DNA of 64,000 nucleotides from a virus. Made by a program: the position numbers and the translations under genes. The notes under the pieces are model-generated. The model was not told where the DNA came from. It searched no databases and saw only the letters and a list, made by a program, of their open reading frames with translations. Below are positions 1,128 to 34,765 of the stretch, piece after piece. Where the stretch lies: positions 25,200-89,199 of the IMG/VR virus record IMGVR_UViG_3300044979_000004. One strand, 5' to 3'. Every line of letters starts with the position of its first letter. Within the stretch, counting starts at the first letter, position 1.

Positions 1128-1341
1128 CGGCAATAATCAAAATAGGGATTTAACTCCTCTTGATTATAATACAAATGGTGATATCAAAACAGTAGATGCA
1201 ACTACTGCATTAGTAGTAGGATCAGCTACTAGAGCTGAATCATACATCTCATCGAAACAATACTCACTAATGTGGAGAGACTCGGATTTACTCTATCAAT
1301 CACCCCGTCCAATTTCGGTCTTCGAAAACACATATATCCTT
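1108..1341 (+). CDS. Portal protein, exon 1
   Basis: ATG at 1108 has the ribosome site GGAGGAG at about 1098-1104. The exon codes 78 residues ending FENTYIL. The in-frame TAG right after base 1341 belongs to a group I intron. Joined to 1573-3462 it gives a continuous protein of about 707 residues (FENTYIL then PNVQRFTVAKVVN). Read without splicing, a 78-residue peptide results and the portal lacks its N-terminus. The portal forms the dodecameric ring at the packaging vertex. Confidence 0.82.
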
Positions 1342-1572
1342 TAGAATGAATGACTTGGGGATATTAAAACCTTTTTTAATTGACTTGAACGCTGAAATGC
1401 CAACAAGGCGGAAGCAGGCGAAAGCCGGGCACCGTGAGAGACTAAACAAAGAGGCGCTTTAGAAATAAAGTGATGCGATAGTCCGTTCTCATGGGAACAA
1501 CAACCATGAGAGTTAGACAGAAATGATCTAACTCAATTAGTGATAAAACTAGTTGATAACACATAAAGAGAG
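1342..1572 (+). other. Group I intron (231 nt) in the portal gene, no ORF
   Basis: P1 forms between the exon end ATATCCTT (1334-1341) and GGGGATAT (1357-1364), giving the required U-G wobble at 1341/1357. P7 is visible as GACTA (1440-1444) with TAGTC (1479-1483). A GGC-GAAA-GCC tetraloop hairpin is at 1417-1426, and P9-like hairpins are CTCATGG/CCATGAG (1488-1494/1504-1510) and AGTTAGA/TCTAACT (1511-1517/1527-1533). The last intron base is G1572, and splicing restores the frame. Several in-frame stops make it incompatible with coding. The sub-class was not determined. Confidence 0.88.
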
Positions 1573-3462
1573 CCTAATGTACAAAGATTTACTGTTGCCA
1601 AGGTAGTGAATGCAATCGTCCCACAACTTTACAAGGGATTATTTTACCAAGACCCACCAATGGTACTCCGTCCGCGTCCAGGTACATCACAAAATGTAAC
1701 CGATGCAAAGACGGCGATGATTTCTTATCTACTAGATGAATGCAATTTTCGAGAAGAGACTAAAATTGGTTTGGAACAAATGGCATTTCTTGGTACGGGA
1801 CTTTGGAAGTGGGGAATTACCTACAAGAAGGTAATTACCAAAAAGCGCCAAGCTAGCACCACCAGCATTACATCTTCGACAACGACACCCAATGCTGAAT
1901 CTGCGAATCTGACTATTCCGACGAATGCGCCGCCCAGTATTACCGTATCGGAAAGGTATGTTCCTCGACCTTACCTAGAAAGTAGAGAAATTAGTAAAGT
2001 ACTAGTTGATCCTCATTGCCCGGTCGGTGACATTCGTAGGGCAGATTGGGCAATTGACGTACGATACATGGACTTCTATCAGCTACAAGAGTTGATTAGG
2101 GGAATAGCAACGCTACCAGAGGACCATCCGGATAAGAAAGGATGGATTCTACCTAGCGAGATAGAGTTGAAGGCATGGTTTATGCCTCCTTCTAACGCGG
2201 GGACTCCTGCTCAGTTAGTGTCAGATCAAGCAGCATTGATTCGGGGAGTAGTAAACCACTCAGAAGAGATCAATGTTCAAACTTCTCCAGATTTGCTGTT
2301 TAAGAAACTAGAAGTTCTAGAGTACTGGGATAAGAAGAGAAAAATTCTAGTTATTGATCGTAAAAAGACAATCTATAAAGGAGATAATACTTTCGGAGTT
2401 ATTCCCTTCCTGTCGGCTAATTGGTGGAATCGCCCACGAGCTTTCTATGGCATGGGACTTGGACTTATTGTTGGACAGAACCAAAGAGTAGATCAAGGCA
2501 TAGTAAACGCGTTGCTAAAGATTCTATCTTTCGGAGTGAACCCCATCTATCTCCGGCGCAGAGATGCCAACACACCAACCCAGATGATTCGGACAGGTCT
2601 TGGAAAGATTCTATCTGTTGATGGTGAAGTTGACAAGGCTTACAAACTTCTGGAAACCCCAAAGGTTCCACCCGATGTTTGGAGCGCACTGGCCGAATCA
2701 GAGAAGGCTACCGAAAGTAGCTCAGGCGCAGATGCTCAACTCGTACAAGGATCATCAGCCGGTCCACGAAGTTCTATGGGTCGAACAGCAGGCGGTGCTG
2801 CGCAATTAGGGCAGGCTTCTGCTACAAGGTTAGACGGGCCGCTTGACAATTTTATTGAACAGGTTTTCAAACCCTGGATGTACATTCTAGATGGTCTTGT
2901 ATTTGAGTATTTCTCAGATCAAGAAATCTTCACCATCCTTGGTGAGGAGATGGGCAAGGACTTCGAAGTCGATCTACAGGCTTACCATGACTCTGTAATT
3001 GAGTATGAAACGCTGGCAGGCGCAAGTCTAGCAGCGAAGAGAACCATGAGCCAATCAATGACCTTGATTACTCAGATTTTCGAAAACCCAAACATTCAAG
3101 AGAACCTAGCTGACATCAACGAAGAGTATGTTGACTTCAAGCGCATCCTCAAGATGTGGATGGAATCAACCGAGTGGAAGGACTTCAACGATATCGTCAA
3201 GCCAATGACGCAACAGATGAAGGACAAGCGACAAGCCAAGTCGCAAGCCGCTCAGCAACAATCAAAACTAGCATCGCAACAGCAAATCAGCCAACAGAAC
3301 TTCGGACAGAAGCAGCAGCTACAACAAGAAGCCGCTCAGCAACGAATTCAGAAGGACTTGATTGTTGGGTCGTTCTTGAACTCCTCTAAATCAGAGGCAG
3401 AGACAGGAACACCAAATGCAACCGGCGAGGGTGGAGCAGATCAACAGCCCGCTGAACTATAG
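1573..3462 (+). CDS. Portal protein, exon 2
   Basis: The exon is open from 1573 (PNVQRFTVAKVVNAIVPQLYKG) to 3462, 629 codons. A GTG at 1606 is an internal codon and not a likely start, because the coding match extends upstream to the splice site. The sequence has features of podovirus-type portals: LRPRPGTSQN near the start, a long central body with GMGLGLIVGQNQRVDQG, and a Gln-rich, coiled-coil C-terminus (QSKLASQQQISQQ). It is followed by a 13-bp hairpin. Family identity comes from overall pattern and from its place between terminase and scaffold or capsid. Confidence 0.8.
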   Translation, partial: PNVQRFTVAKVVNAIVPQLYKGLFYQDPPMVLRPRPGTSQNVTDAKTAMISYLLDECNFREETKIGLEQMAFLGTGLWKWGITYKKVITKKRQASTTSITSSTTTPNAESANLTIPTNAPPSITVSERYVPRPYLESREISKVLVDPHCPVGDIRRADWAIDVRYMDFYQLQELIRGIATLPEDHPDKKGWILPSEIELKAWFMPPSNAGTPAQLVSDQAALIRGVVNHSEEINVQTSPDLLFKKLEVLEYWDKKRKILVIDRKKTIYKGDNTFGVIPFLSANWWNRPRAFYGMGLGLIVGQNQRVDQGIVNALLKILSFGVNPIYLRRRDANTPTQMIRTGLGKILSVDGEVDKAYKLLETPKVPPDVWSALAESEKATESSSGADAQLVQGSSAGPRSSMGRTAGGAAQLGQASATRLDGPLDNFIEQVFKPWMYILDGLVFEYFSDQEIFTILGEEMGKDFEVDLQAYHDSVIEYETLAGASLAAKRTMSQSMTLITQIFENPNIQENLADINEEYVDFKRILKMWMESTEWKDFNDIVKPMTQQMKDKRQAKSQAAQQQSKLASQQQISQQNFGQKQQLQQEAAQQRIQKDLIVGSFLNSSKSEAETGTPNATGEGGADQQPAEL

Positions 3463-3902: not shown

Positions 3903-4949
3903 ATGAGTGAAAATGCCATTGAAGAAGTAACAGTTCAGGAAATTATTCCTGTTGAACTACCAGAGCAGAGATACGAATTTCAGCCTGTTGATGATGAGGG
4001 AAGGCCCATCGGCGGACGCCAAGTAATCAAATACAGAACAAATGACGAGCTACGTGATCAACTTGTTAATCAGAACACCCTTCTGATTCGCAAGCTTCGC
4101 AAAGAGACTCGCAACAATCGCCTAGGCATTTCAGCAAAGGATGAGATTCCTGAAGATGCGCCAAAGTATACCGGGCCTATCGAATTCAAGCCGCGTGTAA
4201 TTGGCGACGATGAGCGCTATGACATTTCTAGACGCCTCCTCGATCCTAGCACCGCAATGGACGCAACAGCACAACTTCTAGAAGCTCAGCTTGGTGCTCC
4301 CCTATCCACGTTGGGACAGACTCTATCTGATATCCAGACCGAGAACCTGAAGCTACGCGCTAGAGTAGAAGTCAATGCATTTATGCAAGACAACCCAGAC
4401 TATTATAAGTGTGGAGAGAACTTCGAAGCAATTACATCATGGATGCTACGCTACGATCTAGCTCCAGTGAAGGCTAACTTTCAGAAGGCATACGACACTT
4501 TGAAGAGTGTTGGAGCACTAGTTGAAGGTCCGAGAGTGGAAATTCAAGCACCCGTACAGGCCCCACAGACCGTACAGGCGCTTCAGCCTGTAGTCGAGGA
4601 GATTGAGAGACAGGAGATTCCGGTAGAGCCTGTTGCAGCTCCGCCAGTGACGCCTGTAGTGCGCGTCCCCTCTGGTCTGACTCGTGACAATAGTTCTGAA
4701 ATTGGACCCGTACAAGCACCTGGAAGTGATATCGTCTACGAGGCGACGTTTGGCGGAGAGATTAAGAAAGTCAACGGAGTCGAGACGGTAGTTGGCGGTC
4801 AAAAGAGAGTATTCACAGGCGCGGCTGCTATTGATGCTATGCCTGGAGAGGAATACAAGAGACGCCTGCTGCATGAGCCGGGATTTGCCAAAAAGGTACA
4901 AGCCCTAGACGAAGCTGCTCTGGCCGCAAGACGCGCCAAGAGGCAGTAA
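3903..4949 (+). CDS. Scaffold-like head assembly protein (348 aa)
   Basis: It begins MSENAIEEVTVQEIIPVEL and is rich in charged helices and Pro/Val/Gln linkers (residues about 200-260). It ends in a basic helix AALAARRAKRQ, as many phage scaffolding proteins do. It lies between portal and major capsid, separated from the latter only by the acetyltransferase gene, the usual place of a scaffold. Its stop overlaps the next ATG. No enzymatic motif is seen. The call is by composition and order, not by a diagnostic motif. Confidence 0.55.
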   Translation: MSENAIEEVTVQEIIPVELPEQRYEFQPVDDEGRPIGGRQVIKYRTNDELRDQLVNQNTLLIRKLRKETRNNRLGISAKDEIPEDAPKYTGPIEFKPRVIGDDERYDISRRLLDPSTAMDATAQLLEAQLGAPLSTLGQTLSDIQTENLKLRARVEVNAFMQDNPDYYKCGENFEAITSWMLRYDLAPVKANFQKAYDTLKSVGALVEGPRVEIQAPVQAPQTVQALQPVVEEIERQEIPVEPVAAPPVTPVVRVPSGLTRDNSSEIGPVQAPGSDIVYEATFGGEIKKVNGVETVVGGQKRVFTGAAAIDAMPGEEYKRRLLHEPGFAKKVQALDEAALAARRAKRQ

Positions 4950-5377
4950 TGGTTATCTTGCGCAAAGCTGTAGATGATGATATTCAGGGCATTTGGGATT
5001 TGAATGCTCTGATCAGGCCGAGAGAGCCTATAACCACTTTGAAAGCGGTGTTTTCACAGCCTGAAACTGTTGCGTGGGTTATGATCGACAATTTTAGAGT
5101 TGTTGGGGCTTTAGTGGGAAAAACAAAATTTTCCCTACCGTACATTCATTCCATCGCCGTTGAGCCTTCATATAGGAGACAAAGATGGGCGTCCAAGTTA
5201 GTAAATGAGTTTGAACTACACTTTAGCCGAAAAGGTAAAGGAAATTATTGGCTTCAAGTAAGACACGACAATCCGGCACAAAAGCTGTACTTCGATTTAG
5301 GGTACAGAGTCGAGAGTGTTGATGAGAATTTTTATGGTCCGGAGTTGCATGGTTTATGCATGTACAAAAGGCCATAG
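4949..5377 (+). CDS. GNAT-family N-acetyltransferase
   Basis: The 142-residue product has the GNAT layout: VILRKAVDDDIQGIWDLN at the start, beta-strand VAWVMIDNFRVVGALVG, then IHSIAVEPSYRRQRWASKLV, the motif A region where a R/Q-x-x-G/A segment binds the acetyl-CoA pyrophosphate. The motif here reads RRQRWAS, so the usual Gly is replaced. DNPAQKLYFDLGYR is the family's C-terminal signature. Start ATG overlaps the scaffold stop (1 base). Its stop codon is the first base of a GCGTAT-N3-ATACGC palindrome. The substrate is unknown; modification of a virion or host protein is possible. Confidence 0.85.
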   Translation: MVILRKAVDDDIQGIWDLNALIRPREPITTLKAVFSQPETVAWVMIDNFRVVGALVGKTKFSLPYIHSIAVEPSYRRQRWASKLVNEFELHFSRKGKGNYWLQVRHDNPAQKLYFDLGYRVESVDENFYGPELHGLCMYKRP

Positions 5378-8859: not shown

Positions 8860-9516
8860 ATGCCTACAGCACAGGAAATACAAGCAACTCAGGGAACACG
8901 CCTAAGTGAGACTAACCCATGGGACAGCTACGGCGACGAACTCGGAGTGAAGATGACGCCGGAACTCGCATCAGCAGTCGATGCCTACTCGCAGAAACGT
9001 TGGCAGAAAGACAAGGTTGGCTCTGAAACTCAGGAAGTCCTTGCCGAACAGAGAGAAATGAATGATGAGTTGGCTCAGCAATATCAATGGTTGACCAAAG
9101 AGGAATACGCTAACCAAGAAGCCAGAGTGGGGACCGTACTAGACTACGCATCTTTCATACAGAAACTACGCAGTATAGGGCTAGTGTGCCATTACCGTCA
9201 GCATCCGCACCATGACAAGGCGATTTTGTACATCTCTAGAAATGGACTGTCCGAGCCTGAACTTGCCTGTTGGGCGCAGATAAATGGACCTATGCCTGAG
9301 CTTTCTATGTTTAATTTTGATGACCACGGCGTTCCTTTGGCCGAGAAAAGACGCGGCTGGAGAACATGCTTACTTCAAATAATCCTAAAAGGGTTCATAA
9401 CTGAGGAAGTAGCAAACAAGTTGTTTGGGAAGCCTCGACTGACCAAAGAATTTGACAGATATAACTCAACGTTGTACGGGTTTAGAAATCGCGGAAAGGG
9501 ATGGGATGCCGAGTAA
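8860..9516 (+). CDS. Hypothetical protein (218 aa)
   Basis: Start ATG at 8860 with AGAGGAGAACG. The N-terminal half is charged and helical (EVLAEQREMNDELAQQYQWL). The C-terminal half contains HYRQHPHHDKAILYISRNG and a basic end (GFRNRGKGWDAE). The last 11 bases overlap the following HNH gene. No family is recognised; place among structural genes is the only functional hint. Confidence 0.7.
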   Translation: MPTAQEIQATQGTRLSETNPWDSYGDELGVKMTPELASAVDAYSQKRWQKDKVGSETQEVLAEQREMNDELAQQYQWLTKEEYANQEARVGTVLDYASFIQKLRSIGLVCHYRQHPHHDKAILYISRNGLSEPELACWAQINGPMPELSMFNFDDHGVPLAEKRRGWRTCLLQIILKGFITEEVANKLFGKPRLTKEFDRYNSTLYGFRNRGKGWDAE

Positions 9517-9835
9517 AGACCCGGATTACTTCAAAAGATACTACCGACTTAACAAAGACAAGAGACAGGCTAATGATCGCTTCAGACGTTATGGAATCAC
9601 TCAGGAACAATATGATGAACTGCTAAAAAATCAGGATTACAAATGTAGAATTTGCAAAATCGATAAAGCAGACAATAGAGGCGGTAGCTGGCACACAGAC
9701 CATGACCATAAAACAGGAATTGTTCGATCACTTTTGTGTTCTTGCTGTAACAGTATGTTGGGCCACGCAAAAGATGATCCAGAGATTCTGAAACAAGCAG
9801 CAACATACCTTGAATTGCAGTATGTTGCTTATTAA
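9506..9835 (+). CDS. HNH endonuclease, recombination endonuclease VII type
   Basis: The preferred start is ATG 9506, preceded by GGAAAGGG, which overlaps the upstream stop. Longer in-frame reading back to 9452 lies inside the upstream gene. Zn ligands CRIC and CSCC flank the catalytic HTDHDHKTG, the endonuclease VII pattern (Cys-pairs with D-H-D-H), and GHAKDDPEILKQAATYL is its usual C-terminal helix. About 109 residues, a minimal free-standing homing-type nuclease inserted between head genes. Confidence 0.88.
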   Translation: MPSKDPDYFKRYYRLNKDKRQANDRFRRYGITQEQYDELLKNQDYKCRICKIDKADNRGGSWHTDHDHKTGIVRSLLCSCCNSMLGHAKDDPEILKQAATYLELQYVAY

Positions 9836-10488: not shown

Positions 10489-10494
10489 GTGCCT

Positions 10495-10995
10495 ATGAAG
10501 ATATGCTCTGAATGTAGTGAAAAACAACTAGCCAAAGGCTTGTGTAGAAGGCACTATTACGCTGCAAAGCGTGCTAGTGCCAGCCCACACGACATCGAGG
10601 TTTACAAAAACAAACCACTCGCTAGGGCTGCTCAAAAGTGGGCCAATCAGACGGACGAGGAACGAATCGCGTACTCTGCAAAGTATAAAGAGGGTATCCG
10701 TAAGCGCAGGGAAAAATTATTTGATTACGTTCCTAACAAGTGTGCTTTATCAAAGTTGTCCAAGTGTACAATAAGCAACAAAGCTCTACATCGTGACCAT
10801 GATCATACATGCCCATGCGGAAGACCTAGAGGCTGTAATGATTGTTTCCGTGGCTTACTGTGCAATTATCACAACGCAGTAGTTCTGCCGGTCTTGGAGT
10901 CTTTAGAACTTGAATATATTCCTGAACTGGTCAAAGCATATTTAAAAGGCAGGCCACTTAAACAAGCTGACTTTTCTTTGCCAACAGTGGGATAA
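10495..10995 (+). CDS. HNH endonuclease VII-type with N-terminal Cys/His finger
   Basis: ATG 10495 (MKICSECSEKQLAKG) is preferred; a GTG at 10489 is also in frame and overlaps the upstream stop. The N-terminal C-x2-C...GLCRRHY finger recurs in the nuclease at 37129. The catalytic part is ALHRDHDHTCPC with CNDC and GLLCNYHN, a variant endonuclease VII site with additional Cys residues. It is 11 bases from the next structural gene, so it is an insertion in the head-tail operon. Confidence 0.82.
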   Translation: MKICSECSEKQLAKGLCRRHYYAAKRASASPHDIEVYKNKPLARAAQKWANQTDEERIAYSAKYKEGIRKRREKLFDYVPNKCALSKLSKCTISNKALHRDHDHTCPCGRPRGCNDCFRGLLCNYHNAVVLPVLESLELEYIPELVKAYLKGRPLKQADFSLPTVG

Positions 10996-34107: not shown

Positions 34108-34183
34108 GGGTTAGTAGCTCAATTGGGAGAGCATTCCCCTTGCACGGGAACGGTTGCAGGTTCGATGCCTGTCTGATCCACCA
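34108..34183 (+). tRNA. tRNA-Ala (anticodon TGC)
   Basis: Acceptor GGGTTAG/CTGATCC, D-arm GCTC...GAGC, anticodon arm TTCCC-CTTGCAC-GGGAA with TGC, T-arm GCAGG-TTCGATG-CCTGT, encoded CCA. Complete cloverleaf. Confidence 0.92.
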
Positions 34184-34308
34184 AAGTTACGAATGGTCGC
34201 CGCTGAGAGGGCACTCCGATGCGGCCTAAGACGAGCAAAGCGTCTGCCATTTCAGCGGCACGCCGGAACACTGTGATTTGCAGTCATAAGATTCGGCATG
34301 TCGTGTTT
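34184..34308 (+). ncRNA. Structured gap of 125 nt in the tRNA array
   Basis: GCCGCTGA (34199-34206) pairs with TCAGCGGC (34252-34259); inside, GGCA pairs with TGCC (34210-34213/34245-34248) and GACG with CGTC. A second element CACG-GCCGGA (34259-34267) pairs with TTCGGC...CGTG (34292-34305), holding an ACTG/CAGT hairpin. No tRNA cloverleaf fits on either strand. Tentatively a small RNA or a decayed tRNA. Confidence 0.45.
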
Positions 34309-34383
34309 AGTCGCCTAGCTCAGAGGCAGAGCATCGCACCTACACTGCGAGGGTCGAGATTTCGAAATTCTCGGTGACTACCA
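34309..34383 (+). tRNA. tRNA-Val (anticodon TAC)
   Basis: Acceptor AGTCGCC/GGTGACT, D-arm GCTC...GAGC, anticodon arm TCGCA-CCTACAC-TGCGA with TAC, encoded CCA. Position 33 is C and not the near-universal T, and one T-stem pair is mismatched. Confidence 0.82.
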
Positions 34384-34436
34384 ATTTGGAACATAAACGT
34401 TCCATAACAGCCGTTAACGTAACATTTATGTTACAC

Positions 34437-34510
34437 TCGCAGTTCGTCCAACGGCAGGACAGCGGACTTTGACTCCGTGAATCAAAGTTCGAATCTTTGA
34501 CTGCGGGCCA
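34437..34510 (+). tRNA. tRNA-Gln (anticodon TTG)
   Basis: Acceptor TCGCAGT/ACTGCGG, D-arm GTCC...GGAC, anticodon arm GCGGA-CTTTGAC-TCCGT with TTG, T-arm CAAAG-TTCGAAT-CTTTG, encoded CCA. Confidence 0.9.
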
Positions 34511-34518
34511 TGTTTTAA

Positions 34519-34593
34519 GCGGGATTAGTGTTAGTGGTAGCAAGCTAGTCTTCCAAACTAGAAGGGTCAGTCCGAGTCTGACATTCCGCTCCA
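34519..34593 (+). tRNA. tRNA-Gly (anticodon TCC)
   Basis: Acceptor GCGGGAT/ATTCCGC, anticodon arm CTAGT-CTTCCAA-ACTAG with TCC, T-arm GTCAG-TCCGAGT-CTGAC (TC in place of TT), encoded CCA. Confidence 0.9.
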
Positions 34594-34604
34594 ATTCAGA
34601 TTTC

Positions 34605-34680
34605 GCCTCTGTAGTTCAGTTGGTAGAGCATCGGTTTTGTAAACCGAATGTCGCCCGTTCGATCCGGGCCGGAGGCTCCA
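34605..34680 (+). tRNA. tRNA-Thr (anticodon TGT)
   Basis: Acceptor GCCTCTG/CGGAGGC, D-arm GTTC...GAGC, anticodon arm TCGGT-TTTGTAA-ACCGA with TGT, T-arm GCCCG-TTCGATC-CGGGC, encoded CCA. Confidence 0.93.
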
Positions 34681-34689
34681 GTTTCACAC

Positions 34690-34765
34690 AGGTTCATGGT
34701 CTAACGGCTATGATGCGCGTCTCCAAAACGCTGCGGTTACGGTTCGAATCCGTATGAGCCTGCCA
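34690..34765 (+). tRNA. tRNA-Trp (anticodon CCA)
   Basis: Acceptor AGGTTCA/TGAGCCT, anticodon loop CTCCAAA with CCA on a GCGT/ACGC stem, T-arm TACGG-TTCGAAT-CCGTA, encoded CCA. Confidence 0.9.

Follow-up and report, generated by a model that had tools for sequence, protein, structure and literature searches.

The DNA analyzed here (the window) covers the final 64 kb of an IMG/VR virus record 89.2 kb long. Near one end, on the plus strand like the other features of this locus, a free-standing GIY-YIG/NUMOD3 endonuclease gene (546–1127; 193 aa) lies at the terL–portal junction; its last 20 nt overlap the beginning of the portal gene. The portal gene itself is interrupted. Its first exon (1108–1340) matches residues 10–83 of the portal of Tunturi_3 (PP885686), which was isolated on Tunturiibacter and has an uninterrupted portal gene. 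The exon ends in ATC CT and its frame remains open into a TAG at 1342–1344; the portal frame picks up again at 1569, the start of the second exon (1569–3462). Comparison with uninterrupted portal relatives gives U1340|1341...G1568|A1569 as the best boundaries and thus an insert of 228 nt (1341–1568) with no gene of its own. The spliced junction would read CT|A GAG CCT, for ...FENTYI-L-E-PNVQRF..., and the predicted product is a 708-aa SU10-type portal protein (PF23899) in which ...FENTYILEPNVQRF... is the sequence found in the intronless portals of Tunturi_3, L002 and L010. A cut one base later, after U1341, would yield the identical protein but make A the last intron base instead of G; we prefer the boundary after U1340 because of the intron-terminal G rule. 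A preliminary description of this DNA had reported an ORF-less group I intron splitting the portal gene within 1334–1572. That interval does contain the element, and both the interruption and the lack of an internal ORF hold up, but the boundaries were off: a length of 231 bases was given, and the splice proposed as restoring the frame exactly, from FENTYIL to PNVQRF, drops a Glu that uninterrupted relatives keep. The description had also stated that a relative in which these bases are coding would speak against an intron; we searched for such a relative and found none.

The assignment of the element to group I is supported by a P1 helix with a U·G wobble, a terminal G, a P3–P9 core with compensatory changes and exons that are continuous in dozens of intronless relatives; its splicing is predicted from these same features. 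In P1, identified in the sequence and by an automatic search, the 5′ exon strand AUAUCCU (1334–1340) pairs with the internal guide GGGAUAU (1358–1364) over 7 bp, with U1340·G1358 at the splice site and six more pairs. P3 (1370–1376 with 1448–1454) has two-sided changes in 6 of 7 pairs. P4–P5 spans 1384–1407 (1384–1387/1404–1407 and 1390–1392/1399–1401), with two-sided changes in 3 of 7 pairs and weak outer pairs: that of P5 is mostly unpaired and that of P4 is broken in four of the aligned sequences. P6–P6a (1408–1435; 1408–1411/1432–1435 and 1414–1415/1429–1430) is 100% paired, with two-sided changes in 5 of 6 pairs. P7, whose 5′ strand is 1438–1444, forms a pseudoknot with P3 through pairing of 1438 and 1440–1444 with 1479–1484; its pairs are nearly invariant, A1439 is bulged and G1440–C1483 occupies the guanosine-binding position. 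The P8 (1455–1472) and P9 (1488–1510) hairpins show two-sided changes in 4 of 5 and 4 of 7 pairs, respectively, and are followed by P9.1 (1511–1533) and P9.2 (1534–1555), both missing from the shortest relatives. Pairing with the 3′ exon (P10) amounts to at most 2 bp, as read by eye.

Several analyses bear on this structure. Counted on an alignment of 12 related portal introns, which was read by hand for this structure and so favors it somewhat, the P3–P9 core had 96.0% of cells paired versus 79.9% in shuffled alignments. Two-sided changes were present in 23 of 38 pairs, none of 500 shuffles reached the observed percent paired or covariation score, and sliding the partners by 1–3 columns collapsed pairing to 34–44%. 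The single-sequence fold of the window intron has a z of −4.1. In all 12 portal introns an exon-end U precedes the intron and a G closes it, with the portal restored by splicing, and each located portal intron has an exon T just before it and a guide match of 3–6 bp. The U and the terminal G are required by our automatic splice finder and are not independent evidence there; manually set boundaries came from the exons with neither imposed, and the terminal G, G1568 in the window, is present in 13 of 13 introns bounded in this way. P1 with its wobble, P7 and P9, the pairings noted in the preliminary description, are all part of this structure.

Covariance models gave a divided answer to the search that the description had proposed. 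A model built from nine introns (R2), with those of the window and of its two closest relatives, L006 and L042, left out, recovered the window intron at 139.6 bits (E = 2.7e-26) as the sole match in 64 kb; on 24 intronless control loci it found nothing inside the portal gene and matched in the capsid region only. The standard Rfam model, RF00028, did not report the window intron at gathering or permissive thresholds, even at E 5. We do not regard this miss as decisive, because RF00028 gives the T4 nrdB intron, a proven one, 35.7 bits against its own cut-off of 50, and because it does detect other introns in related loci. These are other group I introns, in L250, L123 and L236, and more than one intron type is therefore present. 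With the model R1, the T4 nrdB intron produced a match that was local and weak (18.2 bits, E = 0.005). At the DNA level, the matches between the intron and isolated phages are weak and partial and mainly involve Lak phages. Prevotella phage Lak-B1 (L374, ~161 kb) carries an R1-type intron (82.6 bits) that adjoins an ORF resembling, by eye, anaerobic ribonucleotide reductase. A scan of genome contigs returned mostly chance matches, together with one weak match in L271 and two strong R1 matches (126.7 and 93.9 bits) beside a capsid-like ORF, identified by eye, in L295. The latter is labelled as an uncultured archaeon and is probably a phage contig binned with one.

The window intron is one of many in this part of the portal gene. 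We examined about 100 portal loci from two portal scans, with further intron loci from pattern scans of the intron core, using a splice finder in which the score is the agreement of the spliced protein with portals that have no intron. Counted from the P of PNVQRF, introns of related phages occupy nine sites, at −83, −76, −66, −57, −55, −33, −11, −4 (the window) and +3, all within 87 nt of the portal gene, and all matches in portal genes fall inside the first ~260 coding nt. The −83 site is based on L113 and L119; L078 and L095, which may share it, and L184 were low-scoring and were excluded from site support. Securely placed introns measure 183–247 nt. Two introns each are present in L012, L013, L067, L074, L113, L322 and L360, and only the +3 intron was seen in L147. 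Introns in portal genes had been described as uncommon at the outset; in this phage group, however, the N-terminal region of the portal gene is a recurrent target. The open-licence papers that we searched contained no portal-gene group I intron.

This distribution also bears on whether the insert is an intron at all. Unspliced, the gene consists of a 78-aa and a 618-aa ORF, as would be expected of a decayed or split portal gene whose second exon is translated alone from a GTG at 1606. Such a reading is almost certainly wrong: exon 1 still codes for the N-terminus, which is conserved, a ribozyme core that covaries is present in the insert, and inserts of the same type lie at eight other sites, where the frame is restored as well. 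Translational bypass was rejected for two of these reasons, the covariation of the core and the number of other sites.

The neighboring GIY-YIG gene is the second component of the locus. The window protein matches PF01541 (E = 0.005) and PF07460 (E = 0.004), both under the curated cut-off; for the Pfam GIY-YIG domain it reaches 17.5 bits versus a cut-off of 22.6, which the homologue in L360 passes with 35.4 bits. The nearest solved structure is the I-TevI catalytic domain (1ln0, E = 0.0035). The GIY-YIG motif and the E/N positions are present, but the position of the catalytic Arg27 of I-TevI aligns to Tyr, so that activity of the window enzyme is only putative. In three relatives the gene survives as a remnant: L006, L042 and L052 keep only its ends in the terL–portal gap, with different internal deletions, and the L006 copy has in addition a stop and a frameshift. 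Fragments of this kind are to be expected if fixation of the introns is followed by decay of the gene.

To ask whether gene and intron travel together, we grouped the portals of the portal-based scans, together with those of the window and Tunturi_3, at 93% identity and scored the resulting 61 lineages. A GIY-YIG gene, either intact or as a remnant, accompanies 11 of 15 intron-bearing but only 1 of 46 intronless lineages (Fisher p = 3.6e-8; two clusters with both states were scored as intron-bearing). Because the lineages are related, a test on the portal tree is safer than this count: it yields 6–7 independent informative pairs in one direction and none in the opposite (median p 0.03). Intron presence on the same tree requires at least 10 forced gains or losses on well-supported branches. 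The exceptions, four intron-bearing lineages with no GIY-YIG trace and the intronless L009 with an intact gene, fit a reading in which the intron is genuine but the GIY-YIG gene is an unrelated neighbor that homes by itself into the terL–portal gap, by intronless homing like that of SegF of T4, with the introns arriving otherwise and hitchhiking. Free-standing homing endonuclease genes are indeed common in phage gene junctions (PMC2988022, PMC6083498). We nevertheless consider a chance neighbor unlikely, given the strength of the association, the agreement in direction of the independent pairs and the confinement of the introns to the ~87 nt that adjoin the GIY-YIG gene. The GIY-YIG clades moreover match clusters of sites, with relatives of the window gene at −4/−11 and another clade at −66 to −55, in a sample that is small and was partly collected via introns.

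Comparison of close relatives, read from metagenome contigs in which mis-assembly is possible, points in the same direction as the association. L360 contains the GIY-YIG gene along with two introns; the near-identical L337 has neither. The two are ~97–100% identical over most of terL and nearly 100% identical over most of the portal after nt 360, but identity drops to 44–87% over portal nt 1–360; elsewhere they differ in a few short patches of terL and the later portal. Between the intronless sisters L333 and L337 there is no such drop, with 92–100% identity across the same 360 nt. The GIY-YIG gene, both introns and the flanking exon of L360 differ from L337 as one replaced block, the footprint expected of donor-templated DNA repair. 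L012 and L013, whose intron sites differ, show a similar divergent block at the portal start and L344 and L349 a broader one; pairwise comparison of the older pairs L006/L007 and L039/L038 revealed no clear replaced tract. The suggestion in the preliminary description that the neighboring GIY-YIG gene could mobilize the intron in trans gains support from both the association and the replaced tract in relatives, and we regard such mobilization as probable on this comparative evidence.

How introns reach new sites within the portal gene is addressed by the introns themselves. L360 has introns at −55 and +3 with 58 bases of exon between them. These two copies are 88% identical and differ mainly in P1/P2, in the loop of P6a and at the 3′ end; the −55 introns of L360 and L012 are 61% identical. 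The identity of the two L360 copies points to hopping between sites. In the intron tree, which is weakly resolved (11 of 45 branches starred) and was used for its well-supported joins only, sites and genes are mixed and portal and capsid introns intermingle. One could read this intermingling, the kind of differences between the L360 copies and the occurrence of a common core with differing guide sequences at nine sites as the outcome of movement mainly via RNA, by reverse splicing into the portal mRNA followed by reverse transcription and recombination. We think this rather improbable as the main route, since reverse splicing alone brings neither the GIY-YIG gene nor replacement of the flanking exon, and since direct evidence for it is lacking according to a review (PMC3984707).

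Copies of this compact ORF-less family are also present in major capsid genes, at several positions in Tunturi_3-like phages. Among 102 loci from the pattern scans, the intron lies beside capsid homologues in 38 and beside portal homologues in 20, and 4 of 9 unassigned flanking proteins tested matched PHROG major head families. In some capsid copies the P8 region contains an ORF of the Endonuclease VII type; this composite form of intron plus endonuclease is seen in the capsid genes of L355 (7739–8191; PF02945 match of the ORF, E = 2e-16), L337 (8489–8854), L019 and L032. Several R1-type matches lie within a few kb of one another in L198, L204, L140, L106 and L226, with five or six each, some of them weak, in L198 and L204. 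Among the head genes of the window lie two free-standing genes that resemble Endonuclease VII (9452–9835 and 10489–10995) and may encode homing endonucleases similar to F-CphI; a search beside them found no intron. Elsewhere in the window, a GNAT acetyltransferase gene (4949–5377), shared with Tunturi_3, lies directly upstream of the major capsid gene, and six tRNA genes are clustered at 34108–34762.

Altogether, we infer that the element is very probably a self-splicing, ORF-less group I intron that spreads by collaborative homing with the GIY-YIG gene at 546–1127, a model in which splicing, cleavage and its target, and hopping are all predicted from sequence. We envision that the intron is excised from the portal mRNA by two transesterifications, with a 5′ cut after U1340, at a position set by the P1 U·G wobble, and exon ligation at G1568, leaving the portal protein intact. 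Spread between phages would occur at the DNA level: the GIY-YIG enzyme would cut a co-infecting phage that lacks the intron at the start of its portal gene, and repair from the donor would copy in the endonuclease gene along with the 5′ exon of the portal and its intron or introns. After fixation the endonuclease gene would decay. Less often, a copy of an intron would move to another site nearby within this short region, perhaps by relaxed DNA targeting or by reverse splicing. A more tentative extension, which we offer as possible rather than probable, is that this one portal region is a shared landing pad, with the terL–portal GIY-YIG family carrying interchangeable ORF-less introns that also copy themselves between sites within 87 bp, so that position would turn over as the endonuclease gene and cassette persist.

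These findings matter because collaborative homing has so far been based on very few worked phage examples and reverse splicing, as a way for introns to reach new sites, still awaits direct evidence according to a review (PMC3984707). One conserved 87-nt stretch here combines nine sites, near-identical pairs with and without the cassette, sister introns at different sites of one gene and a graded series of endonuclease decay, so that all stages of the cycle can be tested in a single compact system. The intron family is widespread in phage portal and capsid genes, and the standard Rfam model leaves it unreported here.

Elements of this system have counterparts in other phages. The portal introns have a group I core in common with the T4 td and nrdB introns, but the latter carry an internal ORF, GIY-YIG (td) or HNH (nrdB), whereas the portal introns are ORF-less at 183–247 nt. 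Many group I introns per phage group have likewise been found in Bastillevirinae, where RF00028 was also called incomplete (PMC11878797); the terms "portal" and "major capsid" are absent from the text of that paper. Cluster J mycobacteriophages similarly have group I introns in virion structural genes, for capsid and tail, one with and one without a homing endonuclease and with splicing shown by RT-PCR, but these introns are few and at single sites, with no portal intron and no multi-site cluster (PMC3706429). A parallel for collaborative homing is the psbA intron of cyanophage S-PM2 and F-CphI, where a conserved phage gene likewise contains a group I intron lacking an ORF and a free-standing homing endonuclease gene adjoins it (PMC6083498, PMC3984707). 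There the enzyme is of the Endonuclease VII type and cleavage at the site was shown; here homing is deduced by comparison of sequences, the enzyme is a GIY-YIG protein, and the target is a portal gene with nine sites in 87 nt. The single element is ordinary in kind but unusual in its setting, and what is new is the clustering of nine portal sites in association with a GIY-YIG gene, a variant of collaborative homing.
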